In this document: in pieces, positions 6,268 through 63,700 of the stretch
Position numbering within the stretch: position 1 is the first letter of the stretch
How the letters are laid out: each line of letters opens with the position of its first letter
The notes under the pieces: generated by a model
Told to the model about the DNA's origin: nothing
Seen by the model: the letters and a program-made list of their open reading frames with translations, nothing else
The model's database searches: none
Translations under genes and position numbers: made by a program
DNA from: Sabellastarte sp. h YS-2021
Taxonomy: Eukaryota > Annelida > Polychaeta > Sabellida > Sabellidae
Reading direction: 5' to 3'
Assembly (NCBI GenBank): GCA_964017235.1
Contig: OZ024928.1
Coordinates: 2,604,001-2,668,000 of the forward strand
Length of the DNA: 64,000 nt

Positions 6268-6330
6268 TTACTTGGAGTTAGAACCCACAGAAGAATGGCT
6301 GTGGGATAGGAAAGTGAGACAGGGGATTAA
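6268..6330 (-). repeat. tRNA-like B-box fragment
   Basis: GTGGGTTCTAACTCC on the minus strand with flanking CCATTCTTCT resembles the head at 38010-38084. Confidence 0.35.
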
Positions 6331-8270: not shown

Positions 8271-8302
<32 letters not shown>

Positions 8303-8674: not shown

Positions 8675-9003
8675 TCAAACTAGAATAAGTACTCCGAGAG
8701 CGCAAACCTCCAAAAGCAGGTTAATCCTACCTCTATTTTTTTCCCATTTCGTAACATAGTATCGGGAATATGCTGGGATCTAGACCCAACTTAGGTTTAC
8801 CATAGACACCACTGTGGGAGTATCCTGTATGTTATGGCAACCAATCTGAAGATTCTTTATTTATTATATCTAAATAATGAGAGATCCCATAAAGGATTTC
8901 TGGATCCAGGTGATGATCCAGTTTGTCCCCGAAAGCAAGTCTACTCCTTGTTCCATGTCAATATTTCCTGAAAATTTCAGAAAAATCCAAAAATAAGTTC
9001 TAA
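8675..9003 (-). repeat. Dispersed TTTGCGCTC-type repeat, copy 3
   Basis: On the minus strand: TTCTGAAATTTTCAGGAAAT, GGATCATCACCTGGATCCAG and TTTGGAGGTTTGCGCTCTCG, all in family order. Confidence 0.7.
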
Positions 9004-9035
9004 TAAGTTATTTTATTTGTGCACAAACAAATGTT

Positions 9036-9085
9036 ACCCCCCCCCCCCCAAAAAAAAAAAAAAAAAAAAAATATATATATATAAT
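9036..9085. repeat. Homopolymer C, homopolymer A and AT microsatellite
   Basis: A C run, an A run of about 20 and (TA)n follow one another. Similar low-complexity runs are at 8269-8305 (A), 10507-10529 (C), 12048-12063 (AAT), 42030-42055 (ATT) and 57249-57267 (G). Confidence 0.9.
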
Positions 9086-9835
9086 AATAAAAAATACAAA
9101 TCCTCCTGGGCGGAGATAAAGAAATGTACCTCAGATAATTTTGCCGTTGTAATTTTAAAAATGCTTGCTGAGACAAATCATTATTATTTCCCATGTAATC
9201 CCATTAACTTATTTCACACCCACAGCCCATCGTAATTTAGAGCAGAGTAAATCATTTTCTTAATCCAATAACCACAAAATTTCCGACCCTTCCTGTTTTC
9301 TCCTCAAATTGTTCATCAAAGTAACTGAAAAGACAATTGACAGCCAAACTTCCGCCTCCAATCAAAGAGTGGAAAAAAGATTAATGAAACTAACTGAACT
9401 CTGGTGGTCAAGATTTGTTTGGACACAATTAAATCTACAGTGCCTAATTTAATCAAAGTTAAATTGACCTTTCCCTCAACTCTTTAATTAATATCGTTCA
9501 CAGAAGTTTGGGGGTATTGCAACTGTTCGCCCCTTGTTTGTCTGTTGATTTGTGGGCTTAACTAAAACTGTACATAGGCTTGGGGGTCATATTTCAACAC
9601 AAGTTGGAATGTACCAATGCCTTTGTCCTCCACACAGATCATTTGGGTATTGTAGTGGGAAGGGAGAGAAATTATTGATTGGTTCTGCTGTGTCTCACAG
9701 CCTTCTGATTATACACAGAAATAAACACAAGTCTAGCTCTTTAATCAGCTGAGCTAAAGGGGAATCCCCGGAAGTCCAGGTATTAATAGAACTGATATAC
9801 ATGAGGACATTACAGTATGAATTTCTCTTCCATCT

Positions 9836-10140
9836 GCCACTGTGGCCTAGTGGGTAACACACTGGATTAGAATTACAGAGGACGTGGGTTAAAACCCAGG
9901 TACAGGCAGATACATAGTGGCGCAGATGATGGCGGTCCTCTGACATTGGGTCCTATCCCCAGTGGCAGGCTGAAGAACCTCAAAGAGGTTGATAAATGGA
10001 TACCCTTGAGCCTCTGTCTTTCAGTTAGGGGAACGTCAGTAACTTCAGAGTTGGACTGTACTTGTACAGTCGGATGGGTCTTGTAGCACTTTGAGCCATG
10101 TAGTACATGGAGGTATTGCGGTGGGTATAAATACAATGCA
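9836..10140 (+). mobile_element. Second tRNA-derived SINE family, full copy
   Basis: The tRNA-like head has A box TGGCCTAGTGGGTAAC and B box GGGTTAAAACCC, with body GTGGCAGGCTGAAGAACC and a tail (TGGACTGTACTTGTACAGTC, GTAGCACTTTGAG, GGTATAAATACAATGCA). The tail reappears without the head at 33241-33340. The head belongs to a different tRNA-like class from the 33.9-kb family. Confidence 0.8.
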
Positions 10141-33340: not shown

Positions 33341-33866
33341 AGACTGAACCTAAACAGACTACTGGAACGTGATATACATTAATCCATCCAACTACTGACA
33401 AGAGAATTGGTCATAAGCGTAGAACCATCAGGGGCAAGAAACTGCCTGACCTATCTGAAGTCCCTGCGTTGCATGAAACAACTTTTGCAGACACTCTGTG
33501 AACATTTTAAGGCAAGGAAAAATCAGAGTTAAACCACACGTCTAGGTTCTTGACTAATTCAGTCTGACAGAGAGGACTACCCGAGATGACACTTGGGAAA
33601 ATCCTTTCAACCCCTCTCTCTGTCTTTATGAACCAAGGTATATAAACTCAGTCCTATCAGGATACTATCTTTGATAAGTTTTCTATAGTAGTCTGACTGA
33701 TCCTGTTATAGAAGTCACTAAGAAATATTGCTACAGAGTCTACTTCTATTAGGTGGATTATTCGCCCTTTGCCAAGTTTTCTTTGAAATTGACAAGTGAG
33801 AGACTTTGCAAGTCAATCAGAGTCAGACAACCAATCCACAGAGTCTTTCTTTATCCAGGTATTGGT

Positions 33867-34105
33867 GGCCACGGTGTCAGAGTGGTAACACTCTCGCCTC
33901 CCACCTCTGAGGGCGGGGTTCGGTTCCCGGCACGGCCTCAAGTGGGAAAGCTGGTAGTTGCTTGCCGTTGGTCGGCAGTTTACAGTACAGAACCTTGACC
34001 AACTGTATGTACTGGTTTCCTCTGCCCTTCCAACTACCCGTCGTGATATGACCTGTACAGTGTTGAAAGCGACGTAAATCACTAAATAAATAAAAAATAA
34101 AAATT
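33867..34105 (+). mobile_element. tRNA-derived SINE, same family as the copy at 47.7 kb
   Basis: The head has A box GTGTCAGAGTGG and B box GGTTCGGTTCCC, followed by the body (GCTGGTAGTTGCTTGCCG, then CAGTTTACAGTACAGAACC) and tail GTTGAAAGCGACGTAAA ending in an AAATAAAT run. It is not a tRNA gene: the acceptor stem is not closed and the body continues for about 170 bases. Confidence 0.9.
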
Positions 34106-34976: not shown

Positions 34977-36527
34977 CATCACTTACGGTCATTTCAGGGA
35001 AATCAAAAGTTTCAGGACCTTATTGGGTGTGGTTATGACGCACATGCTGTCTGATACAGCTTTCACAATTTAGAGCCAAAACTGTGTGCACTATTTTGTT
35101 GACCACCTTATCCTAAAGCCTTCATAATTGATCTTCTGATTTTCTTTATTTTTAATTAACTCTGCCAAACAGGTATTAAATTCATCCCTATTTATTTGTC
35201 TGTTTGTTTGTAGGATTATGCAAATACTACTGGTCAGATCTTTATGGAAAAAAGTTAGAAGATGATTGTGCTCCAACTTAAATCCCATTCCATTTTCAAA
35301 GTGATCAACATTACTGCTTGGTTAAAAACTCACTTCACTGGTGTTGCATTGTGCAGATTCGGCATAAGACAGTTTTATGTTAATTAGGCATGCACTTGTA
35401 CTGGCACCTACCTTTTATTTTACAGAATATTTTTTTTCTCAAGTAATTTCATATTTCTGTATCACTGCATAAAACCATGTTATAATTAACCCCCTCATAG
35501 TGTTCATGTATAGTATTTTTCACACAATGTGCTCGTATAGGTCAAGTCCAAATTCCTAAATTTATTTTCATTTCTTATACAGTAATCTTAAACTTAACTA
35601 GCCTGAAATTGACTTGATCTGTACATTTGTAAATTCTGATTGATGATGTTGTAATACCATTAAGTGTACTCAGACATATATTTAAAGTGTATTCTTGTGC
35701 TAATTTATGTATTGTGTGTGAATAACTCTTCATTGCTCTGGGGCATTCAGTTATTGGTAATTTTTAGTATGCATCACTATCGTATAGTTTTTTTACTGTG
35801 GAATATTACTAAATTACTGGTACTGACTGCGTACTGTGTGAGTGTCTTTTAGAGGAGGGCCTTATGGGGAAGGGGTGGGGGGGTTACTGAATAGTGACAA
35901 ACTTTTTTGAAAATCTGATCACAAGTATGAAAATTTCCACGTGAGCCTCTATGGCGCATACTTATCCAAGGATAGTTGGAAAATTCCGGAAATAAAATAG
36001 TTGTTCTGTATCATCATGTATTATATATGGTCTGTAGAACAGAATTTACTGATAATAAAATCTACAGTTATGTTGAACTATTTTTGATGACATACCAGCT
36101 ATGCAACATGGGGTTATTTACTCTTTTTTAATAACTAGTAAAATTATCATCATCTTACATTTGAAAATGAAGTTAATTTTAAGGTAACATTTAATGAGAG
36201 AAGACCATTAATTTTCTATGGAAAAGCACAACATTAAAAAAGGGCAGTAAATGAAAAAACGCATGATGTGTCCTGAGTGAAAATATAAGTCTTAAGACTG
36301 GTAAAATTAGTCTTAAGACCTTCTGCCGACTATTACAACTGATGGAGATTCATGTAATTGGTGTAACCGTACGACTTTTATGGATACCCTGCCGCATTTC
36401 AACAGGAGAGGGTCCAAAATTAGTCATAAACCATAAAAGATAAGTCACAGCAGAGTAAAGAAAATCTATAACAACTTATGACTGAGGTGTGCAGTGTAAC
36501 TACTCGAGACAGAAATGCAAAGTTTTA
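34977..36527. other. No recognised feature
   Basis: AT-rich intergenic sequence beyond the 3' end of the LRR-Ig gene. A CAAACAGACAAATAAATAG stretch on the minus strand near 35190 resembles the start of a dispersed repeat. Confidence 0.4.
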
Positions 36528-36762
36528 AAGCGTGAGCTCTAGTGAGGCTCGCGCTTCTAGGAATCACTTTTTTTGTGTTTTTATTTGTCTCCCAACTTTC
36601 ATTTAATTGTGGCATAGCGTGATGAGTAATTGTCTATTCACTGCAGTTAAGCGGCAATGAGCTATGTTAGTACTGGGATGGGTGACCGCTTCAGTGCACT
36701 ACTCATGTCTCTGATGGCTTTGCAGCTTCCGCTAGTAGACTGAAACCCCTTTCGGCCTTATT
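36528..36762 (+). mobile_element. 5S rRNA-derived SINE, copy 4
   Basis: Full layout: GAGCTCTAGTGAGGCTCGCG, then TTAGTACTGGGATGGGTGAC, then TCTCTGATGGCTTTGCAGC and a CCTTTCGGCCTTATT end. It lies about 100 bases beyond the proposed poly(A) site of the LRR-Ig gene. Confidence 0.87.
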
Positions 36763-43200: not shown

Positions 43201-46200
43201 AACATACCAAAGACTCATCTTTGTAGACTTGCCTTCACAGTAGCATAAATGTCTCCTCCCTAGTGGGATCCTAGCCAGCCAAATAACTGTTTAAACCACT
43301 TTGTCCACTCTGTCTTGTAATTTGTCCAAAAATCTGACCGATATTCAATGACACTATTTGTCTCAATCCAAATTTTCAGTATATGCAAATTACTCTGGCA
43401 TTATCTTTGAGACGTCAACAATATCACCCATGATCACCAATCTGTTATCCTGTTTATCCACTAACAAAAGCCTGTTTGCTCCAGTAAGAATTTATTGCAG
43501 AAATGTATTTTACAAACAGTATATGTCGGCTTTACAAAACGATAAATAAATTGACAATTAAGTATAGGAAGCTCAAAGACCTCTGTCCATATAACTGAGA
43601 GCTAGGTATTACATATCTCTACAGCTTGAATCTTCAACTTGGATCGCTTTGGTGCCTACAGTATGGCTAATTGTAACATATCTCTAAACCAAACCTACAT
43701 CATATTCTATAGTGCTTTCCTCTTGGCTTCCATCTGGGAATGTTATTGTCATGTTCGGTGTTGGGTCTCCATAGGCCCTGCATTCAACATACAGTTGATC
43801 ACATATCTAAAAAATAAACAAATTAAAAAAAAAACACAAGAAAATGTCGCCAGATTTCCATGGATAGGCACGGTAGTTTCATCTGTTGCATTCTCACTCT
43901 TGTAGCTACAGAGATTAAGTTTTTCTTTCAAATTCGATAAGATTGTTCCCACAAGTAGTCTATAACCCATGGTCCTCTTTCACAAAAGACTTAGCTCAGA
44001 CCTAATTTGGAGATTTTTCCCTTAAGACTGTGGTCTTATACTTTGTGGGTTTTAGGCTGAGGTTTTAGACATAAAGTCAAGACCATATGAGAGTAGTCAA
44101 TGAAGTTTTTCAGTGACTCTTCTCCATGAGTCCATACTAGGAAAATATCATCAATGAACCGTTTCCAAGTAAGTGGCTTCTGTGGGAAGCCAGCTAAAGC
44201 TTTAGTCTCAAACCTTTCCATAAACAGATTCGCATAGTTAGGGGCTAGGGAGGTGCCCATAGCTGTGCCACCTGTCTGCAAGTAATGATCTCCATTAAAT
44301 GTGAAGTTCATACTGTGTAATACTAGTTTCAGTAGGTCTAGTATAAAGTTGGCAATGGGGGTTTTTGTAGGGTCATTTCTCAGTTTCTCTGCTACTGCCA
44401 ATATTCCTTCATTTTTAGGAATATTGGTGTATAGTGACGAAACATCCAAGGTGCACAGGATTGCACCTTCACGGATTGGTCCTAATTCTTTAATCTTTTT
44501 GATAAAGTCTTGGGTGTCCCTAATGTATGATTTGGTTTTGGTGACATAGTTTTTGATGTGTTCATTAACTAACTTGCTGATTCTGCTAGTGGGGTGGTTA
44601 ACAGAACTGCAAATAGGTCTGCCTGGTACACCTTTCTTGTGTATTTTAGGTAGCATATAGAACCTAGCCTCAGTACAGTTGACCGGGTTTAGGTGCTCGA
44701 AATTCTTGTCAGAAATCAAGCCTTTCTCTTTCATTAGTGTGAGGGTTTTTGTCACATTAGTGTCTACTTGCTCAGTAGAATCATGCCCTATTTTAGTGTA
44801 GAACTTAGGGTCGCTCAGTTGTCTGTACCCTTCTCTCAGGTAGTCAGTGGTATTCATGACCACTACTGCTGATCCTTTGTCAGCCTTTTTGATGACTATT
44901 TCAGGGTTTTCTGAGAGTTCTCTCAGACTACTCATTTGCTCCCTTGTCAGGTTTGGTTTCCTGACATGTTTAAGTTTACCATTAAGAAGGCCAATTTTGA
45001 AAGATCTTTGGAAAATTTCAAGAGATTGGTGTACTGTATTAGGTTTCCAAGTGCTTTTATCAACAAACTTTCTATGTTTTTTTGGTAAGGTGAGGTTTCC
45101 TCTTCCAAGTTCTCAGCCATGAAATTAATTAACTCAATTTCTTGGTCTGATAAATGATCAAATTGCTGGTTGTCATTATAGAAGTGGAATTTCAGACATA
45201 GTCTTCTGTGAAATTCCTTAAAATCAGTCCAGATCTTTGCATTGTTTGGGGGTCCTGGTGTAGGACAGAAGGTTAGGCCCTTTTCTAGGGCTAGCACTTG
45301 GCTTTCAGTTAATGAAATGTCAGACAGATTTATGACTGTGTGACCCACTAGGCTCTCCATACTTTTAACTTTGGGTAGGATGCCAGGTGGGCTATTCTAG
45401 CCTCCTCCTTAATGCGATTAAGTATCTCTTTCAAGTCAGAAGTTGCCATCATGATATATGTGGAACTCCACAGAGGGCCTAGTGTGGCCCCCTGAAGCGG
45501 AAAAAGCTTATCCGCTTTGAGCCTCTATTTTTAGAGGCTCATCCGCTAAGAGCCTCTATTTGTGGAGGCTCATCCGCTAAGAGCTTCCTAATTATGGATC
45601 GAGGCTCTGGAATTACAGAGATGTTTCAATAAAGTAAGTCCAATAAGATAGTTGGAAGTTTCAAAAAACGAGCTAATGATCTTGAGTAGGGTTAAATATT
45701 GTCCTGTCTACCCTTAATTTGTCCACAGTATCTTTTAGGTCCAAAAAGGCCTGAAATATTCATACCTTAAAACCCATAACGTAGAATGTGGAAATTATTT
45801 ATAACAGTAAATGGCCAAGTTTCCTTTTATAGCTCTAATAAATGATTTATCTTCAGCATTTATAAGGAATACACCATTCCTTATTATATTTTTAATTTGT
45901 ATCCATTATTTGACCAACAATAGTAGATTAAATGAAAAAATGACATTTTTTATGATTTTATCCTCCTGAGCCTCCTATAGAGGCTCTATCCGCCGGATTA
46001 CGGCTCAAATTTACGGCTCATAGCGGATAGGAGATTTGTACCTTAGGGGCAAATAAGGTAAAATTCTCAGCCTCTGATGAGAAAATACAACTTTATTTTC
46101 GAAATATTACCAACTATATTGGCTAATATAAGGCAGTAGTTATAGGTAACTGCACTAATAGTCACGACACATATCACTTATTATACTTTATGTAAAATGT

Positions 46201-49200
46201 GTGTTCCCAAAATAAAACATGTTAAACAAAAGATATATGTCATGAATAAAAGAAAAAGTCACATGATAAAGCAAATCTCTCTGGTTATTTAATTAAAAAG
46301 CTAAGATAACCTTTGTGAAATAAATTTATGTCCCAGATTTAAACAAAGGCAAAGGGATTAGATTTAATAATAATAATAATAGTAGGATTTATATAGCGCA
46401 AATTGATACAAATCCTCTAATGTGCTTGAGTCCAAGAAGGGAGAGTCCAGGGACAGGCATGGGTCGACATCTAAAAAGCGCCCGCCAGGGTATAACTAAG
46501 GTGGTGGGTTTCCCAGCCTAAACAAGTAGGTCTTTAGCTGGCTTCTGAAACCATCTATTGTTTGCTGAGATCTGACAGTCTGTGGCAGCTTCTTCCATTC
46601 ACCTGGTGCAGCTACTGCAAAGCCACGCCTGCCTATGTGCTTCTTAGGGCGGGTTGAGGAAATAGATATCCTGTTGCCGCGAGTGAGACTGCTCGATCTT
46701 ATTAAAGCCGAGAGATACGGGGGCTGTGAGAGATTAATAGCCTTGAATACCAAAAGATTATACTTAAAGAGGATGTGATGTTGAATTGGGAACCAGTGGA
46801 GTTTTTTCAAAAAGGGTGTAGCATGACTCATTTTGTCAAGTCTGAAGATGATGCAGCAAAGACCATTCTGGACTCTCTGTAGTTTGGCTATGTTGTACTT
46901 GCTTACTCAATAGAGTAAAGAGTTACAGTAGTCTAGACGACTACTGACCATAGCATTTGCCAGACGTATTGCTGTCTCGACTCCAAGGAATTTGCGAATT
47001 CATTGCAAATCACGAAGATGATAGTAACATGCTCTGCAAACCTTGGCAACATGATTGTCAAAGGAGTTGTCTGAGTCGAAAATAACACCCAGATTTTTTA
47101 CTTTCACCGACGGAGAGATATTGTTTTGGAGGAGTGGAACAGGGAAATTTGGTGCAAGCGACTCTCTGATGGCTTTTTGATCTATAATGATAAATTCGTT
47201 TTTTTTCTGGGTTTAGTTTTAGTTTGACACCATCCATCCACTCCTGTACAGACTTGAGACACTCGGTCAGCTGCTAGGTATATCTGGGTGTCATCAGCAT
47301 ACAGGTGATGAGTAACCTTGAATTTTGAAATAACTTCACTGAGGGGACTAGTGTAGAGGGTGAAAAGGAGAGGACCCAGCACAGAGCCTTGGGGGACTCC
47401 GAAAGGGAGAATTACCGCCTCAGAGAAACTATCACCTATTTTAATCTTTTGTTTATGGTTTGAAAGATACGATTTGATCCATGACAAAACAGTACCATCT
47501 AGACCAAACCAGTCATGGAAGCAGTCATATAAAAGAGAATGATCAATTGTATCAAACGCCGCCGAGAGGTCTAATAATGTTAGGGCCACTGCCTTTCCTG
47601 AGTCCACTGAGAGAGCTATAGCATTTTGAATCTTCAACAATGTGGTTTCAGTGGATTTGTTTATTTGGGGTTTTACGTCGCTTTCAACACTGTACAGGTC
47701 ATATCACGACGGGTAGTTGGAAGGGCAGAGGAAACCAGTACATAGAGTTCGCTAGGGTTGTGTACTGTAAACTGCCGACCAACGGCAAGCAACTACCAGC
47801 TTTCCCACTTGAGCCCGTGCGGGGATCGATCCCCGGCCTCAGAGGTGGGAGGCGAGAGTGTTACCACTCTGCCACCGTGGCCCCCGTGGTTTCAGTGGAG
47901 TGGGAACTCTTATAAGCAGACTGGTTGACATTTAAGAGCCCCTCGAGCAAAATAAATTCATTTAGCTGCTTTGCCACCACTTTCTCAATAAGTTTAGATA
48001 TAAAGCTGAGGTTTGACACCAGCCTGTAGTTTTTGACATATGCCAAAGTATATTTAAGTGCCAAAGTATGGCCAAAATTAACAACTTTTGAGAAACTAGC
48101 CCCCAAAAATATCTGTTCATTGTAACGTAAATAGAGATGGTTAAGCTATGGACGGTAGGCTTCAATGAAATGGCATGTCTTCATTTTGGGCATTTAACAC
48201 GACATAAAAACTACCATTTAGGTTCATAATGTTCATTCAACCAAATTAGAGCTTCAAATGCAAAGCTGAGGCTAATATTGTTTTACGTGAAATCTCTAGC
48301 AAGGCCCATGCTTCTAGAGATAACTTTTTTGCTGGATTTTTAAAATTTTTTTTTGTTTCCAGCCTTTTACGAATTGTTGCTCAGTGTGATGAGTATTTTT
48401 CTGTTCACTGAAGTTAAGTGGCAATGGACTGCATTAGTACTGGGATGGGTGACTGCTTCAGTGCAGCACTTGTGTCTCTGATGACTTTGAGGCTGGTGCT
48501 AGTAGATCAAATCGCCTTTCAGCCTTGTTTAATTTGCTCATTGAAGACAGGAAATGAGGAACCTGTGGGCACTTATTGAGAGGTTTCTCGCACCTGGTGT
48601 TGTAGGTTTATGATGTAGGCTAGTGCTGTAGAATCCTACATCAAGCCAAACCCCAAGGTCTCTGACACTCTTAGCAGGAAACAAAGAAGCAATTCTTTCA
48701 TCTGCATTGGAATGACTCATAGGCTCTCCTGTGAGCCAGTGCATTCGAATGTTGGAATAAAATGTCCTTTGAAACCAAAAAAGTTTCTAAAACAGACATT
48801 TTCGGATCATAGTTTAATTATCTTATATATTATTTTTTGTATATACGCTATAACATTCATATTAAACAAGATTTCAAAGCTTTTCAAATATCCATACATA
48901 GCCGGTTTCAAGTCATCATAAGGCTGATCATTGCACAGCAGACTAACTGCTGAAGGACTTTCCCAATCTGACCCAGGCTATTGAATGTGACGCAAAAACT
49001 CTAACTTTAACACTTGGCTCGTGATATCTGGACAGTGCAAACCTCTACCTAGTACAAATACATCCCCCACAAAGTTCACTTATGAATATTCCGTGTTTTG
49101 TGACAAAATTACAAAAATAGTACCTGGACTGTGACATTTGCTGTACATTCCAAGTGTGGTCCACTGCATTTGAAGACTTCAGGCAGTAACTGGATAACTT

Positions 49201-52200: not shown

Positions 52201-55200
52201 TCTTGCTGCTGCTTCTGCTGCTACTACTACTAGTGCTACTGCTGCTACTACTGCTACTTCTACTACTACTACTATAGATTTTGCATAAAGATTTACCACA
52301 TAACTAAAATAGTAACTTCTACAGCTATTGCCCATTGTGTGTTATATTAAGATTTAACATAAGGTTGTCATGTAAAGAATTACTCAATAGAGACATATTT
52401 TGAGAAAATTTTCACCCTGTTAAGACACTTTTAACAGAGTAAAGCAATCTCTGTACTATGTAAGATTTTATATGCGCATGATTAAACAAGTGAAAAAATA
52501 CTTATGGTCTCCATGCAATAAAATACTATCATATACATTCCATTCCTCTATATCTGTAAATATAGAAATTTATTTTTCAGTTATGTGGTATTCAGTTCAG
52601 TACAATGCAGTGTGTACTGCAATATATCCTGATAATCTTTGACAAGCTTTGCTGGTTACAAGGTGACCACCAGTCATAATTGTGCCATATTACAGTTAAA
52701 AGATTATTTTTTTCACGTGTATGAGAAGCTTAAGTATTTTTTTTATTTGCAAAAACTGAATAAATTGCAATGGAAAAATAGAAATTACCTCAAAACGTAG
52801 TCTATGTATCATTTTTTAACCCAAGAAGGTGATTTTGGGACAGAAAGATCAGCAATTTTAAATTTATTAATTCTAAGAAACACTCATAGCGCTCATTATT
52901 AACATTGGAACAATGTATGCACCCAAAACATACTTCAAACAGGCTACCAGGCACTGGTGAACAATTATACACTGATCCTACTACTGGGAGTCCGTGCCTT
53001 AACCTCCTATTAATAATAATAATAATAATAATTGTACTTCTAATTGAACTTTCATGGCACTTAATCCCTGCTGACTGCAGACTCTAAGGCTCAACAAATT
53101 AAAACCAGATTCCAATGTTATGTATCCTGAGATTTAAAAAAGGAGGGGAAGCTAATAACAATAATAATAATAATAATAATTTATATAGACATTCTCATGC
53201 CAAGTGTCACAGTCCAAAAAGGGACAGTTTGATTACCAATAAGAATCTGTCTGATATGTTACTATCAGATAGAGAAGAAGAAAATGATGAAACTGTAGTT
53301 TAAATAGTTAAGCCTTCAACTGTCGTCTAAATACAGTAAACCTATCCTGGTTTCCATTGTTTCGAGGAAGTTTGTTCCATCCCATATTTATGTTGGGTTT
53401 GATCGAAAACAGACAGGTTTAGTAACCCAATGTGAGGCTAGATGTAATTCCAGCCTGGAGAAAGGCTTGTTAACTACCTTTCAGTCTACAGCAGTATACC
53501 AGTCATAATAACATTCCAATCTAAATATGTATGGGAGTTACAATCAATCAAGAATGTACAATTGGGGTATAATACACAAACCTACCCTAATCCTTGGAAC
53601 TCAGTCATCCAATCAGATATACTGAGGAGGTTGTTGTGGAGTCTAATTTCTATAACACCCGGAATCGCACTAAATGTACCTGGCCTAAAAGAAAATGAAA
53701 CAAAGCTATAACAAAGCACTTACAGAGTGCAACCCTCCACCATGGCGCTAATGCAGTAACTTTGGAGACTTTATCTGTTGTTCTATTTTCTGTGGTCTGA
53801 ATCATTTCCAAAAATATAATCACCTTTTCCTTTTGCATCCCCTACCAAATTAACCTTTCATTAGGTTTGGAGTAATATGAAGCAGAAAGCAAACGTTATT
53901 AAAAACACATTGAAAATGGGACCTCGGAAAATTCAGCATTTTTAGTGACAGATGTGGACGTTTAGCTTAAAATGTTCCAAATAGTACTCTCACTGGTATC
54001 CTACTTCCGGTTTGTGTAGGAGCAAGTAACATGAAGGGCTGACAAAAAAAATAAATAAAAATATGTTTTCTGCATATTTAATTGTGTACAGCTACAAACG
54101 CAAGTGATGATATTTATTTCTTTTTATTTAGACTTTGATAATCTGTATTGAAATATGTAAGATGAAGATTAAAATAAGCAGGGGTAATAGTGGTATATAA
54201 TGGGTTAACACATCCACCCCCCACCTCATCAGCAGTTTGGATCCTGCATTACCAATGCCAGGCAGTTTACAGTGCAGAAATTTGACCAACTAGTAAATAC
54301 TGGCTTTTGCTGCCATTATTACTACTGATAGTTCTATCAAAACATTTAATCAACTATAATGTTTTATACAAACAACCAGGGGGCCACGGTGGCAGAGTCG
54401 TAACACTCTTTCTTCCCACCTCTGAGTCCGAGGTACGGTTCCTGGCACGGCCTCATGTGGAAATGCTGGTAGTTGCTTGCCGTTAGTTGACAGTTTACAG
54501 TACAGAACCTTGACCAACTGTATGTACTGATTTCCTCTGCCCTTTCATAACATGCCCTGGTGATATGACCTGTACAGTGTTGAAAGTGACGTAAAACCCC
54601 AAATAAATAAATAAATATACAAGTGACCATGAATGATTCAACTTAATTTTATGATTTGTATCAAATCTGCAGGGGAAATTTACTGATTTCAAACCATAAT
54701 TATTGCATAAATCATCCCAATTGGGCTGAAAATTGTTGAATCCAATGGGTTTTTTTTTACTTTGCATTGATCGTGAGGAATCTGCCTCCTTACAAAGCAA
54801 TAAAATTATAAAAAATATATATTGGGGGCTTATCTGTTATAGTTACTAGATTGAACCCATCTGAAGCACTCACTTGGTTTTAGTTGAGTGCTTGCTAGTA
54901 TGCATCTGGGGGAACAAGATTATTAAAGACTGTTTTTAGACGTACCAGGAGATACAGTCAAAATCTACAATACAAAATTTTTAATCAACATAAAGAATAG
55001 GGATATATATATATGTGTGTGTTGTAACCAGGTCAAGTTGTAAACCCAGTCTTTTTAGAAAGCTATCATGTAAGATTTCTATGAAATTTAGGATTAGATA
55101 AAACTCTGGTGAATGATCAAAGGTACAGAATATACTTTGTTCACATCTTGCAAAATGCTACAAATTTATGACAGATTACATGTACTGAAACAGTGAGACA

Positions 55201-58200: not shown

Positions 58201-60902
58201 GTGAGTATTCAGGCCAAAGTACTGAAGACCAATTGTTTTTTTTCTGTAAGTCGGTCACAAGTAATCTTTTTTTATAATTCAGTGATTTATCTTTATAGTT
58301 TCATGACTTTTCTGGGGTGGGGGGTGGGGGTGGGGGGTGACTGTACTGATTGACCTTGTTCACTCCTCTGTAATATTTCGTCCACGTATCACTTTCAAAG
58401 ACAATACAAGTTGTGTCCTCTGAATACTGTATAATAGAAATCTAGACCAGGCTTTAAAATGTCAGTCTTATCACTCAGGTGAATAACCCTTTCTGCAAGG
58501 ACATATCACCCAGTTTGTCAGTTTTTCCTAAATTTTTTCAATAGTGTCAGTGGTGTACCCACTTTAAAATTGGCTAGGCCTTCCTCAAACTTACAAAAGC
58601 GAAACAGTGATGTTACTTTTTTTATATAAAAAGTCAGTTCAATAGCTGCATATATACTTGGATATTCAAATCATAATCAAGTCAGAACTTAAAACTTAAA
58701 AAAAAAAACAAGGCTAAAGGGGGTTTTGGTCTACTAGCATGAGCACAAGCCATCAGAGACACAGGCAGTGCACTGAAGCGGTGACCCATCCCAGTACTAG
58801 CATAGCCCATCCCGCATAACTTCTGTAAAATACAGTCATTGTGGCCACACCACAACTTCTGTGAAAGACAGACATTCATTGTGGCCATGCCACAATTTAT
58901 GAAAGTCCGAAGACAAAAAAATTCCGCTTAAAAATTCACTCTATTTCCACTTTGTACATAACTCCAATAAACCTGAGGTCCATTCCATCATACATACAAT
59001 ATGCAGCTGTCCAAGGCTTAATGCGAATGTGTCTGGTACACTATACATGTCGGTTGGGTTGATACAAGCGGCATTATAGTCATCACAATAGCAGCTGGGT
59101 ACAGCACATCCTAAACTGGTTCCTGGAAAGGCTGACAGCATTATGAGCAGCAAGGGAACCAGCTTAACAGAGCAGTGATCTGTTGTATAATATACATGTT
59201 ACAGTTAATCTTGGTACTTGGTAAGACACAACAGCTTGTACTTTCAGTTATTTCATGAAAAGACTAAAATCATGGTGAGTAGAGAGGTTTAGTGATACGT
59301 TTTGGCTATCAAACCGTAAAGGCAAACCTATGTCTTACGGAAATTATTTAATGCTACGTGCCTTTTCAAACGTAGTACTAAACCTCTCTAATCTTGGTAC
59401 CTGGTAATAAGACCCAAAATCTGATACTTTCAGTCATTTCGCGAAAAGACTAAAATCATTGGTTAATCTTGGGGTACCTGGTTATAAGACACAAAAGCTG
59501 ATACGTTCAGTTATTTCATGAAAAGGCTAAAATCATGTGATAATGAAACTTTTGCTTAGTGACTGAAATTTATGGTTTGTTTTTGTTCGTTTTTGGACTG
59601 ATAAGTTTCAGTTTATCTGTGTAATGCTTTGAGTTGCTTTTAATTTAAACAAGTGAAATAACCCTTCTTACTTTTAGCGTTAAACTCAATTTTAATATAC
59701 ATGTATGTGATTATATAAAAGCTAACCCTTATATTATCCATCATAATTTTTATTACAGTTTGTTACTCGTAAATTCCTTGTACTGTTTTTATGCACTCAA
59801 GGGCGGATCCAGCCCTTTAGTAAGGTGGGGGTTCACATCGAGTAAGCTGGGGGTTCACATCGAGTAAGGCGGGGGTTCACATTGAGTAAGGTGGGGGTTC
59901 ATCTCAGACATATTATAACTAAGGGAGTGGGGGCATGCCCCCTGGGAAAAAATTAATTTTTGGTAAAAATATAGTGCATTTCCTGTAAATTTAATACCAC
60001 TCTCAAGAAATAATTTTGTACTTATGGGTTAAACCCCTTTACATTATTTTTCAAGGGGGGGGGGGGGGTCGAACCTCCGGAACCCCCCCCCCCGGATCCG
60101 CTAGTGGCACTCCAGTTTATTATTTAGCTTGTAAATAGGCATAAATAGGAAGTGAATAATGAACTCAGTCACGTGCTGTGTGCTTGTTCTAGAACCCGGT
60201 ACTTAAATTCAGCTTTGTGGCTGTACACGTTCAAAGTCTACAGATTTAACCGTAACTTAGTTAAATCTTATTTTTTCATGTAAGTTTTTGATCAAGTCAA
60301 AATTCATTGTTAAAATAAAATTTAAGACAACTTATTTTACCAGTCAATCAACCTTTGCTAGAATTTTATTTCGAATATGAGTTTGAAGTTCTTATCTGTT
60401 ATAAATCTCAACGACTGGCTTTACTAAATATCTGAAATATGTGCCAAAAGTCAGCTTAACTTTGTTTTAACAGTCAAGGATGTGTTTAAGTTGACACTCT
60501 CATAAGAAAATGATCAATTGTACAAAAAGAATGCCAATGGCTGAGATGAATCAAAACCTTCAGCATCCACAGAAGAAATTGTAGGACTGTTTGTAGACTG
60601 TTAAAATTGTAAATAGATACAAAGCTGAATTTTCAGCTTTCCCATGACTGACGAATTTCAATGGCTTTAGATTTCTTAATAGTTCTTTAGTCCTGAATTT
60701 TCAGGAACATGAGCGGTTGTAGACTGTGACTGCTTTTCAGTTAGTTGGTTGTATTATGTGAAATATACTTTCAAATTGCTCTTATATCAATGGATATTTG
60801 AATCAATGGACACCCACAGCAGTATACATTTTTAACAAACCCAAATTAAAACTGTGTTTTAAAAATATGCAAAAAAACACACTTACCCATATTTAGCCAC
60901 AT
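36964..60902 (-). CDS. LRR-Ig single-pass membrane protein, 11 coding exons, 427 aa
   Basis: Seen: joining 60887-60902, 58998-59179, 55766-55863, 53586-53684, 51899-51979, 49814-49947, 49124-49206, 43699-43806, 42589-42686, 42187-42299 and 36964-37235 gives 1281 coding bases plus a stop, with no internal stop. Every intron is GT-AG and every phase matches. Domains by residue: signal peptide about 1-29 (KLVPLLLIML core); LRRNT 30-66 with Cys 30, 35, 37, 44; LRRs about 74-165, including LHNNLLSI and DLSFNKI; LRRCT 166-217 starting at NPLHCNCDLKWL (Cys 171, 173, 196, 217); Ig-like domain about 220-300; CxxCxxxC at 314-321; Thr-rich stalk 322-360; transmembrane helix about 382-406; 21-residue tail. 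N-glycosylation sequons lie at 87, 227, 249, 335 and 363. Family knowledge: LRR-Ig proteins act in cell adhesion and, in amphioxus and bivalves, form expanded immune-type LRRIG families. The tail has no TIR domain or obvious signalling motif, so it probably works through ligand binding or a co-receptor. The ligand is unknown. Confidence 0.87.
37530..37605 (-). repeat. LINE 3'-tail fragment
   Basis: AATTATACTTTTATTGCAAT, then GAACTCAAGGTGCAAAGAC is a diverged tail motif in reverse. Confidence 0.4.
38010..38084 (-). repeat. tRNA-like SINE head
   Basis: On the minus strand, A-box-like TCACCCAGTGGTCAGCAAG and B box GGGTTTGACTCCC are spaced as in a tRNA. No matching acceptor arms are seen, so it is read as a SINE head. 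A related B-box fragment is at 6268-6330. Confidence 0.55.
38817..39450. mobile_element. Composite fold-back MITE, AAGCYTCTCYTACATCCC ends
   Basis: The left end AAGCTTCTCCTACATCCC pairs with GGGATGTAAGAGCAGCTT at 39105-39122 and with GGGATATAAGAGAGGCTT at 39431-39448. Both outer parts also carry CAATATTTGCAG or TGCAAATATTG. The 38817-39122 part looks like two right ends facing each other. A second element of the family is at 41257-41789. Confidence 0.65.
40205..40262 (+). repeat. LINE 3'-tail fragment hosting the 40.3-kb MITE
   Basis: GGTGTGTCTTAGATAATGCT and GGAGATTAAGCTCTGGGATAC match 11940-11990. The MITE at 40264 is inserted at its end. Confidence 0.5.
40264..40976. mobile_element. 713-bp MITE, CAGGGGCCGG ends with ATAC duplication
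   Basis: CAGGGGCCGGTTTCATGAAA at 40264-40283 is inverted at the right end (40957-40976), and ATAC flanks both sides (40260-40263, 40977-40980). The ends are packed with TCTCA/GAGAC motifs. No coding capacity. It is inserted in a LINE 3'-tail fragment (GGAGATTAAGC just left of it). Confidence 0.88.
41257..41789. mobile_element. Fold-back MITE, same family as 38.8 kb
   Basis: AAGCCTCTCTTACATCCC at the left and GGGATGTAAGAGAGGCTT at the right are exact inverted copies, each next to GTACGTG-type sequence. Length is about 530 bp, with a possible TGA duplication. Internal sequence (TTGCAAGGGACACTTAAGC, GTAACTTACGAGAGACTTAG) is also found, inverted, at 39229-39395. Confidence 0.75.
42187..42299 (-). 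CDS. LRR-Ig gene exon 10: juxtamembrane Cys cluster and Thr-rich stalk
   Basis: The acceptor is ACCTGTTTCAG and the donor is GTGAGTC, phase 2 to phase 1, residues 300-338. The exon carries NCGPCWEPC (Cys 314, 317, 321) followed by a run of threonines and a sequon at Asn335. The stalk is likely O-glycosylated (inference from composition). Confidence 0.84.
42589..42686 (-). CDS. LRR-Ig gene exon 9: second half of Ig-like domain
   Basis: The acceptor is TATTTACTTATAG and the donor is GTAATGGG, phase 0 to phase 2, residues 268-300. TGFGIIQANAEG aligns with the F strand (D-x-G-x-Y-x-C-x-A-x-N-x-x-G), but the cysteine position holds Ile290 and the tyrosine holds Phe288. The canonical Ig disulfide therefore cannot form. 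Confidence 0.84.
42905..42985 (-). repeat. LINE 3'-tail fragment
   Basis: TTCTAATTTGACTTGTATAG and AGCTTATACTATCTCC match the tail motif (GCGCTATAAAAGTCCAAT) in reverse. Confidence 0.5.
43057..43250 (+). mobile_element. LINE ORF2 C-terminal fragment
   Basis: PSNWKRLPLEVRSLTTKASF, then PKTHLCRLAF is the terminal motif of CR1/L2/Jockey-type ORF2. A 3'-tail fragment in the other orientation lies at 42905-42985, so two insertions meet here. In intron 8 of the LRR-Ig gene. Confidence 0.7.
43699..43806 (-). CDS. LRR-Ig gene exon 8: first half of Ig-like domain
   Basis: The acceptor is TTTATTTTTTAG and the donor is GTAGGTTTGG, phase 0 to phase 0, residues 232-267. LYVECRAYGDPTPNMTITF matches the B to C strands of an I-set Ig domain, with Cys240 as the B-strand cysteine and the usual G-x-P-x-P turn. 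The C-strand Trp is Phe254 here. Confidence 0.87.
43976..44062. mobile_element. Short inverted-repeat element beside the Penelope fragment
   Basis: CACAAAAGACTTAGCTCAGA faces the inverted CTTAAGACTGTGGTCTTATA-CTTTGTGG. It resembles the 27.2-kb element and lies at the 3' break of the Penelope RT, so it may mark the truncation. Confidence 0.4.
44036..45452 (-). pseudogene. Penelope-like element reverse transcriptase, truncated and frameshifted
   Basis: An open frame from ATG at 45452 breaks near 45360 and again near 44945-45000, then continues to 44036. The N-terminal part (44947-45360) has LSLTESQ-type spacing before LALEKGLTFCPTP. The main part contains IKKADKGSAVVV, CTLDVSSLYTNIP, TGGTAMGTSLAP and RFIDDIFLVW (the D-D of the catalytic box), all characteristic of Penelope-like RT. 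The frame ends just after the catalytic motif. The rest of the thumb and the GIY-YIG endonuclease are not visible, and a MITE-like inverted-repeat sequence (43976-44062) lies at the junction. It is a dead copy in intron 7 of the LRR-Ig gene, same strand as the gene. Confidence 0.9.
45484..46034. repeat. Hairpin-rich element with GAGCCTCTA repeats
   Basis: The left end holds a tandem of hairpins built from GAGCCTCTA, a short A/T loop and TAGAGGCTC, alternating with CATCCGCTAAGAGC. The right end (about 45966-46034) repeats GAGCCTCC-TATAGAGGCTC and AGCGGAT in reverse. The ends are roughly inverted, so this is probably a non-autonomous inverted-repeat element. The hammerhead starts about 36 bases to its right, so both may belong to one unit. 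Confidence 0.5.
46070..46134 (+). ncRNA. Type I hammerhead ribozyme motif
   Basis: Seen: the catalytic box CTGATGA (46074-46080) is followed by a perfect 7-bp stem II, GAAAATA paired with TATTTTC around a 6-nt loop (46081-46100), then GAAA (46101-46104). Stem III pairs 46104-46109 with 46124-46129, then, past one bulged C, 46110-46113 with 46119-46122, closed by CTATA. The cleavage triplet is AUA with the cut after 46130. Stem I pairs GCCT (46070-46073) with AGGC (46131-46134), so the molecule is open at stem I. The G-C pair closing stem II next to A9 also follows the consensus. Family knowledge: such motifs occur in Penelope-like elements and in small retrozymes of invertebrates. It lies in intron 7 of the LRR-Ig gene on the opposite strand, so it would not act in that pre-mRNA. 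The short stem I is the weak point. Confidence 0.8.
46366..48170 (-). mobile_element. Non-LTR retrotransposon (CR1/L2/Jockey-like LINE), 5' truncated
   Basis: Minus-strand RT pieces in order: 47886-48106 (KNYRLVSNLSFISKLIEKVV, then NVNQSAYKSSHSTET), a SINE insertion, 47182-47641 (LLDLSAAFDTIDH, GVPQGSVLGPLLF and HHLYADDTQIYL, RT motifs 3-5 with YADD), a shifted stretch 46832-47181 with LDYCNSLL, and 46496-46831 (LHWFPIQ, FAVAAPGEWKKLP, LKTYLFRL), the conserved C-terminal end. The 3' UTR ends in GCGCTATATAAATCC and an ATT microsatellite at 46366-46380. No endonuclease domain is present; the copy is 5' truncated near 48170. Frameshifts make it inactive. The exact clade needs a tree. Confidence 0.88.
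47656..47885 (-). mobile_element. tRNA-derived SINE inserted in the LINE RT, with 14-bp target duplication
   Basis: The minus strand starts with the tRNA-like head (GGCCACGGTGGCAGAGTGG A box, GGGGATCGATCCC B box region) and ends in the GTTGAAAGCGACGTAAAAC tail. It is flanked by perfect copies of GTGGTTTCAGTGGA at 47642-47655 and 47886-47899. Removing one duplication and the SINE restores the LINE frame between the HSTET and LLKIQNAI-type motifs, so the order of events is LINE first, SINE later. Confidence 0.92.
48287..48530 (+). mobile_element. 5S rRNA-derived SINE, copy 5
   Basis: Core CACTGAAGTTAAGTGGCAAT and TTAGTACTGGGATGGGTGAC, with the shared 5' and 3' units. It lies in intron 7 of the LRR-Ig gene, opposite strand. 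Confidence 0.86.
49124..49206 (-). CDS. LRR-Ig gene exon 7: end of LRRCT, start of Ig-like domain
   Basis: The acceptor is TTTCTCTCTTAAG and the donor is GTACTA, phase 1 to phase 0, residues 204-231. The last LRRCT cysteine is Cys217 in EVFKCSGP. The following ECTANVTVQ starts the Ig-like domain and carries a sequon at Asn227. One of the other two frames stops and the third reads through but has no domain match; only this frame fits the neighbouring exons. Confidence 0.84.
49814..49947 (-). CDS. LRR-Ig gene exon 6: LRRCT cap
   Basis: The acceptor is TTCTATTTTTAG and the donor is GTAAGT, phase 2 to phase 1, residues 159-204. The exon contains HFIGNPLHCNCDLKWL, the start of an LRR C-terminal cap, followed by the third cap cysteine at 196. 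It is one of the least ambiguous domain matches in the window. Confidence 0.92.
50068..50100 (+). mobile_element. Short SINE head remnant
   Basis: GGGGGGCAGAGTGGTAACAC matches the A-box region of the same tRNA-derived SINE; the rest is missing. Confidence 0.4.
50232..50800 (+). pseudogene. Harbinger-associated MADF/Myb-like DNA-binding ORF, frameshifted
   Basis: A Glu-rich leader is followed by FTDSQETAIVEFVKEHPELY, then, after a frameshift near 50455, by HDRQKKEALWAEISAEL and FDVRRWFESQRTRYGKLSKL. This is the MADF-type pattern (hydrophobic residues, paired Trp) of the accessory protein carried by PIF/Harbinger elements, which helps bring the transposase to the DNA. The C-terminal half is missing where the sequence meets the opposing transposase fragment. 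Confidence 0.82.
50821..51153 (-). pseudogene. PIF/Harbinger transposase, N-terminal fragment
   Basis: From ATG at 51153: MWVRPWLLQREERRAYHN, LYATDIPGFTNIMRMTPEFF and EMIKTRLEPHL match the N-terminal part of animal Harbinger transposases (family knowledge). The frame leaves the family near 50821, before any of the catalytic DDE residues. The remaining open frame to 50650 is the antisense of the MADF ORF. An internal deletion has joined the two ORFs tail to tail. Confidence 0.88.
51244..51560. repeat. Subterminal region of the Harbinger element
   Basis: GC-rich sequence upstream of the transposase with repeated short motifs: ACTTAATCGG, GCTTAGTCCC, GCTTAATCGGTTCTTAGTCC, ACTTAATCCC, GCTTAGTCC. 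These repeats may be transposase-binding sites (inference). It ends near GGGGCATTAG; a matching left terminus was not found. Confidence 0.5.
51899..51979 (-). CDS. LRR-Ig gene exon 5: leucine-rich repeat
   Basis: The acceptor is TTCTCTCAACAG and the donor is GTAAGT, phase 2 to phase 2, residues 132-159. The exon contains FCDLSFNKIQQL, a textbook LRR consensus. The phase 2 introns around single repeats fit the one-LRR-per-exon layout seen in many LRR genes. Confidence 0.9.
52180..52276 (+). repeat. Trinucleotide repeat, (CTA)n with CTG and CTT variants
   Basis: About 30 triplets of CTA, CTG and CTT in an uninterrupted frame. In intron 5 of the LRR-Ig gene. Confidence 0.9.
53030..53140 (-). 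repeat. LINE 3'-tail fragment
   Basis: AATTGAACTTTCATGGCACT, then TAATCCCTGCTGACTGCAG and GACTCTAAGGCTCAACAAAT is the tail motif in reverse. Confidence 0.65.
53150..53480 (-). mobile_element. LINE ORF2 C-terminal fragment with ATT tail
   Basis: On the minus strand, WNKLPRNNGNQDRFTVFRRQ followed by LKA and a stop matches the ORF2 end. The 3' end is TCTATATAAATTATTATTAT. In intron 4 of the LRR-Ig gene. Confidence 0.65.
53586..53684 (-). CDS. LRR-Ig gene exon 4: leucine-rich repeat
   Basis: The acceptor is TTTTCTTTTAG and the donor is GTAGGTTT, phase 2 to phase 2, residues 99-132. The exon carries IEIRLHNNLLSISDW, a standard LRR highly conserved segment with the Asn in place. An acceptor five bases further in (GCCAG) would bring a stop into frame, so the outer AG is used. 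Confidence 0.88.
54196..54345 (+). mobile_element. Diverged copy of the same tRNA-derived SINE
   Basis: Fragments such as AACACATCCACCCCCCACCTC and CAGTTTACAGTGCAGAAATT follow the order of the full copies, but the A box is lost. It sits directly before the intact copy at 54382. Confidence 0.6.
54382..54618 (+). mobile_element. tRNA-derived SINE, third full copy
   Basis: Same head, body and GTTGAAAGTGACGTAAAAC tail, ending in AAATAAATAAATA. It lies in intron 3 of the LRR-Ig gene, opposite strand. B box GGTACGGTTCC is slightly diverged. Confidence 0.9.
55555..55700 (+). mobile_element. 5'-truncated, diverged copy of the tRNA-derived SINE
   Basis: Resembles the 3' half of the family: TACTACTCCCATGCATTCC, GTGATCCATACAATGTGTTG and ATCATTTAAAACAAATC match the ordered tail features of the full copies with many changes. 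Confidence 0.45.
55766..55863 (-). CDS. LRR-Ig gene exon 3: leucine-rich repeat
   Basis: The acceptor TCTATCTTGCAG is strong and the donor is GTGAGTAG. The exon enters in phase 0 and leaves in phase 2, covering residues 67-99. It contains the LRR core LWNLTIIYSQLEYI, with an N-glycosylation sequon at Asn87. It joins the next exon at a Glu codon to give the usual LRR spacer form ending in GTF. Confidence 0.88.
56033..57726. mobile_element. 1.7-kb DNA-transposon-like element with 34-bp terminal inverted repeats
   Basis: The termini 56033-56066 and 57693-57726 are inverted copies with 31 of 34 positions identical. They start ATATGTTA and include GTGAATAT and AGGGAATA. Further inverted copies of AGGGAATA-TATTCCCT units lie inside each end (56056-56160 and 57661-57700). 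No transposase is recognised; the only notable open frame (56578-56811) has no known domain. It lies in intron 2 of the LRR-Ig gene. Confidence 0.7.
58314..58337 (+). repeat. G-quadruplex-forming tract
   Basis: Four runs of 4, 6, 5 and 6 guanines are each separated by a single T. This is an ideal intramolecular G-quadruplex pattern. It lies on the strand opposite the LRR-Ig transcript, in intron 2. Confidence 0.8.
58708..58925 (-). mobile_element. 5S rRNA-derived SINE, copy 6
   Basis: The core is diverged and holds a local duplication (ATTGTGGCCA repeated about 40 bases apart), but AGTACTGGGATGGGTCACCG and both end units remain. It starts about 70 bases into intron 2 of the LRR-Ig gene, same strand. 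Confidence 0.83.
58998..59179 (-). CDS. LRR-Ig gene exon 2: signal peptide and LRRNT cap
   Basis: The acceptor is TATACAACAG and the donor is GTATGT after codon ATT (phase 0). The exon covers residues 6-66. A hydrophobic run (VKLVPLLLIML) ends near Gly29. It is followed by a cysteine cluster at residues 30, 35, 37 and 44, which matches the N-terminal cap of extracellular LRR proteins. The only in-frame ATG inside the exon (59141) would leave a signal peptide of about 11 residues, which is why an upstream start exon is needed. Confidence 0.86.
59280..59393. mobile_element. 114-bp MITE with AGAGAGGTTTAGT inverted ends
   Basis: AGAGAGGTTTAGTGATACGT at the left matches the reverse complement of the right end (ACGTAGTACTAAACCTCTCT). 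It lies in intron 1 of the LRR-Ig gene. Flanking sequence shows related short repeats (AAGACTAAAATCAT near 59260 and 59445). Confidence 0.7.
59804..60111. repeat. GGATCC-ended element with minisatellite and G/C homopolymer hairpin
   Basis: It begins AAGGGCGGATCCAGCCC and ends CCCCGGATCCGCTAGTG, an imperfect inverted pair, with GCACTC on both sides (59798-59803 and just after the right end) as a possible target duplication. Inside are four copies of a 26-27-bp GGGGGTTCACATCGAGTAAG unit (59820-59905) and a run of G facing a run of C near 60055-60095. Confidence 0.6.
60887..60902 (-). CDS. LRR-Ig gene, first coding exon (start codon and split codon)
   Basis: The exon encodes MWLNM plus the first base of an Asp codon and is followed directly by a strong donor, GTAAGTGTG. 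It was chosen because the next exon needs exactly one leading base and has no usable upstream in-frame ATG. The ATG at 60902 has an in-frame TAA 12 bases upstream. A second ATG at 60890 lies in AATATGG, a better start context, and would shorten the signal peptide by four residues. The 1707-bp intron to the next exon is inferred from the fit of donor and phase, so this exon is less certain than the others. Confidence 0.68.
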
Positions 60903-62764: not shown

Positions 62765-63700
62765 TCAAGGGAGTAGATGTAGTTGGAAAGCTTGGGTTAG
62801 AGGAGAAGTGGAGGAATTACTTTTCTGTATGCACCTCCAAACACAGTCAGAGGACCAAGTACCCTGCTGCTTAATTACTTCAATTGGGACCCTGTGTTCA
62901 AAAGCCCAGGAGGCCCCAGACCTCCTAAAGGTGTGAAATGTAAAGTTGTGATGTTGCAATTGCAATAACAACAAAACCCTCTTCAAATGCTTCCTAACCA
63001 TGCTATCTGTATGAGGAGACCATTTGTTGGCCTTGAAGATGGCAAACAATGGATCATTATTTGAACCAGGGACCAGATGCAACATGTTAGATAATGCTGT
63101 GACTGGACATAATTTGGAACCTGGAAGTTTTGGAATGACCACATGAGCAACATTATCTCGTGATTGAATGGTCTTGGACCATTTTACTAGAACAATAGCC
63201 TCATTATCAGAAAAAATGATATCACCGTGAGCTAGATGGCGAGAAGGGTCAAAGCCATTCTTTGCATGTGGAACCATATTTGACAGTCTCAAAAATGAAA
63301 AGAATGCCAAAAGGTATATTGAAAGAAAAATTTCTGAGAACTTTAGTGTCTCTGTTGCTGCAATGATTCCAATAGGATTTTTTCAGTAAATATGGACTTT
63401 GTTTTGACCACAAGTGGTCTGTTTATTCTGACAGATTTAACAAACATTTGGATTTTTTCATCCCGAAAAGGGGAGTGGGAAGGTTGTGTATTATAAACAT
63501 GGTCCTGAGAGCTGCCAGATAACTGCAAATATTGGCGACAGATAATAAATTATCTACCAGATATTCAAGATAAGCCAAAATAATGTCCACATTTACCTGG
63601 CAGGGGGTCAGCCCAGTGACCACCAGAAAAGCCAAAAAATCAGCAACCATCCTGCTATAGGTTCTCTGAGTTGTAGGTCTGAGTGAATCCCGGAGTCGGG
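62765..63700 (-). pseudogene. Tyrosine recombinase of a DIRS/Ngaro-like retrotransposon, degenerate
   Basis: Three frames together make one recombinase. The SAM-like N-terminal part is at 63343-63650 (FLAFLVVTG; then RINRPLVVKTKSIFTEKILL). The catalytic part is at 62765-63310, with first Arg in FFSFLRLSNM, Lys in VLVKWSKT, the H-x-x-R in FHTFRRSGASW and a Trp in the second-His position (GTWSSD). The residue expected to be the nucleophilic Tyr in a WR-Y-I context reads Cys (codon at 62831-62833). With frameshifts at about 63430 and 63320 the copy is inactive. Enzymes of this type integrate circular cDNA without a DDE integrase. Confidence 0.88.

Follow-up and report, generated by a model that had tools for sequence, protein, structure and literature searches.

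The hammerhead motif and its surroundings

The window analysed here is a 64,000-nucleotide stretch of contig OZ024928.1 of the sabellid polychaete Sabellastarte sp. h YS-2021, whose plus strand carries at 46070-46134 a 65-nucleotide motif in which all parts of a type I hammerhead ribozyme core can be read directly. Hammerheads share the boxes CUGANGA and GAAA and an NUH cleavage triplet, and are described with a conventional residue numbering. In the window the CTGATGA box (46074-46080) and the GAAA box (46101-46104) occur in this order, together with an open-ended stem I of 4 bp (GCCT/AGGC, 46070-46073/46131-46134), a 7-bp stem II whose first pair is G-C (46081-46087/46094-46100) and a stem III comprising 6 bp, a bulged C at 46123 and a further 4 bp (46104-46113/46119-46129). 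The cleavage triplet is AUA (46128-46130), invariant across 13 distinct copies of the motif, and the predicted cut falls at 46130/46131; the initial annotation had placed boxes, stems, triplet and cut in the same way. The three core-closing helices are borne out by the fold of the isolated RNA and by covariation, which is modest within the family and strong against a satellite ribozyme described below. A descriptor scan of either strand of the 64-kb window recovered no other hammerhead, even when stem III was relaxed to 2 bp or a single mismatch in the core was tolerated.

The minimum-energy structure of the isolated 65-mer is exactly the fold described above (z -2.8), and that of a 112-nucleotide RNA retains stem III and loses stems I and II. 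Over ten flank settings the mean pair probability of stem III was at least 0.71, that of stem II at least 0.57 in nine (0.007 with 20+20 nucleotides of flank), and that of stem I anywhere from 0.003 to 0.93, with the whole hammerhead fold ranging from 0.001 to 0.32. The predicted competitor is the 5' flank, which in these models acts mostly against stem I and in one setting against stem II. A candidate pseudoknot between loop II and the 3' flank, amounting to 4 bp in the window, is doubtful: swapped loops and flanks give at least 4 pairs in about 9% of cases, and the pairing is absent from the main subfamily (loop CAATTT, flank AGTAGTCATAGG).

Whether AT-rich hairpins might merely happen to flank two boxes was judged against 9.56 Gb of order-1 and 9.68 Gb of order-3 Markov sequence (19.2 Gb together). 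At least 17 contiguous pairs arise by chance in 2.4e-4 to 4.5e-4 of windows, or about 4 to 7 times per Gb, a rate that leaves some room for such a resemblance, and at least 21 pairs, counting beyond the bulge, in 3e-5 to 8e-5 of windows. Once U7 and the pair G10.1-C11.1 are also required along with the 17 pairs, the two simulations yielded 0 and 1 matches, that is, one in about 19 Gb. Real genomes are richer in hairpins than Markov sequence, and these rates are perhaps too low for that reason. The earlier statement called chance assembly very unlikely; the expectation is a few per 10,000 windows by pair count and far fewer with the canonical details.

The other point in favour of chance is the behaviour of the Rfam models, a scan with which had been proposed as a check, a miss being one of the three refuting results named: the motif was not matched at the gathering score, a search of 1.4 kb gave no match at E<=1, and in 121 nucleotides the sole hammerhead family reported was RAGATH-1-hammerhead, at 12.4 bits (E 8.6) as against a gathering score of 56.3. 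Such a curated threshold gauges detection and is no property of the molecule itself. As a yardstick we scanned IMG/VR with a pattern that asked for GTC and G10.1-C11.1; it matched at least 120 loci, and in 120 of them (L001-L120) a descriptor recovered 136 distinct hammerhead-like motifs, with stems I of 4-8 bp and stems II of 4-7 bp. A covariance model built from 60 phage hammerhead motifs (R1) returned the window motif as its best match (13.5 bits, E 0.068). Searched against 80 of the 120 phage loci, R1 gave 104 matches, which scored 23.6-69.1 bits and included many of the motifs it had been built from. With a second model built from these 104 matches (R2) the window motif scored 22.6 bits (E 5.5e-5 over 158 kb). 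Of the 30 loci L121-L150, R2 also matched 18 at E<=1 (20.7-23.3 bits) and left 12 unlisted; one of the latter, L125, has a 65-mer identical to that of matched loci such as L122, so that either the filters of R2 discard genuine copies or the score lies at the margin. On the strength of the R1 and R2 scores the window motif ranks as a recognisable but atypical hammerhead. It resembles the phage hammerheads, as presented in the available text of PMC3088659, in its core, in G10.1-C11.1 (which the pattern required) and in the 4/7-bp combination of stems I and II, found in 4 of the 136 motifs. It differs from them in having AUA where 129 of the 136, under a pattern that asked for GTC, have GUC, in its very AT-rich stems and in that the window's family keeps no loop contact between copies. 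Against chance stand also the copies of the motif, which keep the core while their loops vary, and the satellite, which retains the architecture through 10 double changes; taken together with the single match in about 19 Gb, these make a fortuitous resemblance so improbable as to be negligible.

The motif is flanked by splice-like exons on the minus strand, one at 49943-49813, which we take to resemble an LRR C-terminal cap (LRRCT), and another from 43807, which presumably encodes an Ig domain. A Pfam search of the putative LRR-cap exon gave no match, and that of the putative Ig exon gave Ig_3 below threshold; an LRR/Ig-like minus-strand host gene is hence a tentative assignment. The intronic position given by the initial annotation accordingly stays plausible on account of the splice-like exons, and is not firm in view of the Pfam results. 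Its description of the motif as antisense to the host gene holds as an account of where the element landed, with the gene itself depending on weak exon evidence.

Several other repeats and mobile sequences lie in the window. The 3' part of a LINE ending in a TTA repeat (~46349-48000, minus strand), which we assume to be CR1/L2-like, adjoins the insertion described below and has an RVT_1 match at 47182-47703 (E 1.8e-17). An open reading frame at 62765-63382 (minus strand) matches a tyrosine recombinase just below the cut-off (Phage_integrase, 26.9 against 27.1 bits) and perhaps comes from a recombinase-type transposon. A repeat of about 235 bp is present in three copies, 85-92% identical (33864-34099, 47655-47891 and 54374-54617), one of them inside the LINE region, and a second dispersed repeat of about 230 bp, 74-80% identical, occurs at 4278-4510, 5795-6029, 36523-36762, 48294-48530 and 58704-58829, the last match being shorter.

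A Penelope-like host element

In the 1.786-Gb genome (647 contigs) the ribozyme region has at least 41 matches and a longer query at least 44, these being lower bounds from scoring 40 of about 600 candidates. The segment 45669-46194 of the window is 90-93% identical to its four closest genome copies over about 510-525 nucleotides. Conserved copies, the lack of which would have counted against the motif, are therefore present, and the intact elements among them form tandem units of 6,034 bp, as given by the spacing on contig C3. Each unit reads, on one strand, hammerhead, ORF1, ORF2, ORF3 and the next hammerhead. In the intact copy L152, ORF1 (5744-6514) encodes 256 amino acids without a Pfam match, ORF2 (6885-9299) a protein of 804 amino acids with RVT_1 and GIY-YIG domains, and ORF3 (3682-4521) one of 279 amino acids matching zf-C2H2, with two C2H2 fingers. 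ORF1 and ORF3 are regarded as parts of the element because both are found in L158, a diverged copy of the window's subfamily, at 78% and 66-76% identity respectively. The 35 homologues of ORF1 recovered are all from ENA contigs and have no listed domain. Our literature search, which took in a few related papers, found no description joining Penelope-like elements with a hammerhead, ORF1 and a zinc finger.

Among ten 10-kb stretches (L151-L160) the ribozyme is on ORF2's own strand in all 15 ORF2 copies that have an upstream ribozyme. The upstream same-strand ribozyme of L157 is decayed, and L157 and L159 each bear an additional ribozyme on the opposite strand within an inverted terminal piece, as in the window. 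Three features that characterise Penelope-like elements are thus found together: a reverse transcriptase and GIY-YIG nuclease in the single ORF2 of the intact copy, tandem units forming pseudo-LTRs with the 6,034-bp spacing, and a hammerhead in the pseudo-LTR on the strand of the reverse transcriptase. A unit of 6,034 bp with three open reading frames does not correspond to a metazoan retrozyme, which is a short non-coding repeat of about 150-450 bp. In viral and prokaryote collections the stem II pattern was not found, nor, by a search method that detects close relatives only, any relative of the reverse transcriptase; phages yielded nothing matching window positions 45400-46400. From the sequence comparisons the motif is almost certainly a type I hammerhead ribozyme of a Penelope-like retroelement, with cleavage predicted. 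Such elements had been named beforehand as a known home of these motifs, and the Penelope family is indeed the host.

The copy in the window has two parts. A 3'-terminal piece (45669-46194, plus strand), delimited by the genome copies and by alignment to L158 and the canonical unit, carries the ribozyme and corresponds to the interval between ORF3 and ORF1 that holds the ribozyme in intact units. It ends in an insertion tail (46131-46194, plus strand) which runs from the predicted cut to the element's 3' terminus and has the AC-rich stretch TCACGACACATATCAC beside that terminus. The second part is an inverted internal piece (44092-45668, minus strand; canonical 1743-3347) made up of the N-terminal part of ORF2 and the ORF1-ORF2 spacer, the latter with 31-bp repeats. 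Within it lies a broken remnant of ORF2 in more than one frame (44093-45454, minus strand), comprising the N-terminal region and part of the reverse transcriptase, with an RVT_1 match (E 5.2e-8) and tblastn alignments to ORF2 residues 21-125 and 125-454; this is the nearby Penelope reverse transcriptase that had been correctly noted on the other strand. The pieces are fused head-to-head at 45668/45669 and share about 2 bp, by which amount the junction is ambiguous.

In L158 the equivalents of both window pieces are on one strand, about 830 bp apart, and L134 and L137 show similar inverted internal pieces ahead of the ribozyme-bearing end. The opposite strands of ribozyme and reverse transcriptase in the window are accordingly attributed to an inversion inside the copy. 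The initial annotation had left the host element unclear on the ground of these strands, a view we revise: the host is the same Penelope family, whose intact copies have both on a shared strand. The window copy may have arisen by an insertion with a 5' inversion resembling twin-priming or self-priming. No clear target-site duplication is seen beside the window copy. We also considered a MITE, that is, a DNA transposon with terminal inverted repeats, at ~45478-46058, and rejected it, the repeats being stretches of the Penelope spacer and 3' region that now face each other. The nearest parallel to the inversion is provided by the Penelope copies of Adineta vaga, for which the available part of PMC3846280 describes inverted pLTRs, head-to-head arrangements, tails, 5' truncation and palindromes; the window copy goes beyond the inverted pLTRs reported there in having an inverted internal coding piece.

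Two further arrangements were observed among the genome copies. Locus L154 contains head-to-head Penelope copies (83-4437 and 5646-10000) with arms 100% complementary over 4,355 nucleotides, and in L156 two ribozymes stand back to back, about 70 bp apart; either recent events or assembly artefacts could account for both.

The 526-bp direct piece might instead be an element of its own, a non-autonomous metazoan retrozyme or satellite monomer that abuts the Penelope fragment by accident. Several genome copies do match only ~45670-46196 of the window, and the genome contains a separate satellite with a related hammerhead. L125, L129, L132 and L136, on the other hand, extend upstream into the Penelope ORF3, and because of this continuation they are best read as 5'-truncated Penelope insertions; intact units, moreover, contain the same stretch between ORF3 and ORF1. 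We consider an independent retrozyme very improbable on this evidence. The element shares with metazoan non-LTR retrozymes, which in the accessible text of PMC7229834 are non-coding repeats of ~150-450 bp with type I hammerheads, the type I topology, the tandem repeats and a helix III, which is present in those of invertebrates, and departs from them as a 6-kb coding element.

A domesticated intronic ribozyme that processes the surrounding gene, in the manner of the amniote intronic hammerheads (RECK and others) mentioned in the part of PMC6155905 at hand, would agree with the possible intron position and with a core that is intact beside a broken piece of ORF2. Yet the motif is on the strand opposite the putative gene and hence absent from its pre-mRNA, it is one among many dispersed copies, and the exon evidence is weak, which together leave domestication with hardly any likelihood.

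Helix conservation and a related satellite

We compared 13 distinct ribozyme 65-mers, those of the window and 12 others, after dropping the misplaced alignment L176_+1591 from 14 distinct rows. They have 45 invariant columns, and the loops and the bulge are most variable. Pair 40-55 appears as A-U, G-U and G-C, and pair 18-25, which ends stem II, as A-U, U-A and U-G, or mismatched (A/G) in three sequences. Overall 98.5% of cells are paired and 6 cells are changed on both sides, and none of 500 shuffles attained either value. Double changes occur at two pairs, a number that does not exceed that of the shuffles (272/500). Two loci, L166 and L177, carry damaging changes at pair 10.1-11.1 and in the core. 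The sequences thus point to modest compensating changes in the helices among the Penelope copies.

A pattern of the form CCTCTGATGAG...CGAAAT...ATAAGG has 2,117 genome matches, a figure that counts all pattern matches rather than satellite units, and its reversed control has none. The matches listed are all on contig C1, from 139113 to at least 266477, mostly at a spacing of 1,157 bp, and mark a tandem satellite with a related hammerhead in each listed unit. The satellite ribozyme shares its core with that of the Penelope element and has three stem I pairs in the part shown. Its stem III, in the commonest version, follows the Penelope plan as well, with 6 bp and 4 bp parted by one 3'-side bulge and closed by a five-base loop. 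Between the two ribozymes, 10 of the 17 pairs of helices II and III have changed on both sides with pairing retained; when the letters were shuffled 200,000 times, only 3 shuffles formed as many of those pairs that the pattern left free. On the other side, the last two pairs of the satellite's helix II form only with a bulge, one stem III pair is broken in the first listed copy, and in both forms folded with RNAfold the 5' half prefers a different structure. We infer from these sequences that the satellite and Penelope ribozymes are homologous, the alternative being that their likeness arose by convergence. The 1,157-bp satellite may be nearer to retrozymes than the Penelope element is.

Insertion ends and the role of the ribozyme

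The ends of insertions were sampled in 39 of the 70 loci L121-L190, with same-place duplicates and 10-kb stretches dropped, which gave 42 alignments spanning the ribozyme. Of these, 24 run on towards ORF1 and 18, the window copy included, stop. All 18 stops fall at canonical 820-834, a zone of 15 nucleotides that lies 52-66 nucleotides beyond the predicted cut (canonical 768/769) and 10-24 nucleotides before the ORF1 start codon. The query included the tail, so that copies ending exactly at the cut were under-sampled and possibly missed. In the main subfamily the 23-mer just past the cut has 109 exact genome occurrences, in 102 of which the 7 bases that precede the cut are also present (counted as a 30-mer); at most 7 of the 109 could therefore begin at the cut, and some of them perhaps have mere substitutions. 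Because the stops lie past the cut and at most 7 of 109 copies could start there, self-cleavage appears not to set the ends of the inserted DNA within the sampled copies.

A close counterpart is the Poseidon_Ac element of the anole, in which a hammerhead is located at the pLTR-ORF junction and reverse transcription starts internally, 85-92 nucleotides past the cut, at an AC-rich stem-loop (PMC11167929). In vitro, mutating the hammerhead of this element leaves insertion unchanged, and RNA-seq shows no reads that terminate at the cut (PMC11167929). The Poseidon ribozyme depended on the element's protein. The annelid element is like Poseidon_Ac in its ORF with reverse transcriptase and GIY-YIG domains, its tandem units, its hammerhead at the pLTR-ORF junction on the strand of the reverse transcriptase, and in that its insertions end beyond the hammerhead, at an AC-rich stretch. 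It differs in that ORF1 stands between the ribozyme and the reverse transcriptase ORF, which in Poseidon_Ac starts within the hammerhead, in that the zinc-finger ORF3 follows, and in the distance of the ends from the predicted cut (52-66 as against 85-92 nucleotides). By analogy with the anole element, the end pattern fits an internal start of reverse transcription that leaves a tail. The template for insertion would be uncut RNA, within which reverse transcription would begin next to the AC-rich stretch that follows the ribozyme, and each new copy would hence carry a complete ribozyme and a short tail.

The ribozyme could cut transcripts of the tandem units at AUA^AGGC and so release unit RNAs whose 5' end is 75 nucleotides before ORF1; the chance that tandem transcripts are cut into unit RNAs in this way in cells is about even. 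In the window the ribozyme could act only in plus-strand transcripts and not in the RNA of a surrounding minus-strand gene. Reviews describe Penelope hammerheads, in the portions available, as minimal and usually without helix III or loop contacts (PMC6155905, PMC7761336). The present motif, in which helix III measures 10 bp and helix II 7 bp, contrasts with these review descriptions, to which the comparison is confined. Relative to the same portions of the reviews, a Penelope ribozyme with a 10-bp helix III in place of the minimal form would be new.

Based on these observations we propose, as a possibility to which we give clearly less than an even chance, a three-ORF Penelope lineage with a full-size hammerhead whose 10-bp helix III has a single bulged base in a constant position. 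This hammerhead would be able to work as a single copy, and its fold, rather than its sequence, would be common to a tandem satellite of the genome. The task of the ribozyme would be to divide tandem transcripts into unit mRNAs immediately ahead of ORF1, and not to define insertion ends, and the satellite would be a non-autonomous, retrozyme-like follower of the Penelope lineage. The odds of this reading are reduced by the lack of Poseidon_Ac RNA ends at the hammerhead cut.

The role of the hammerhead in Penelope elements is called a mystery in the available part of a 2020 review (PMC7761336). In the annelid genome the long helix III, the roughly 100 copies identical over 30 bases around the cut and the sharp ends make this role testable. 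Nothing in the genomic ends suggests that inserted DNA is shaped by the ribozyme, and what is left is a part in RNA processing or translation, or no function at present. If the satellite unit is derived from Penelope, it would link autonomous Penelope elements to retrozyme-like repeats within one genome.
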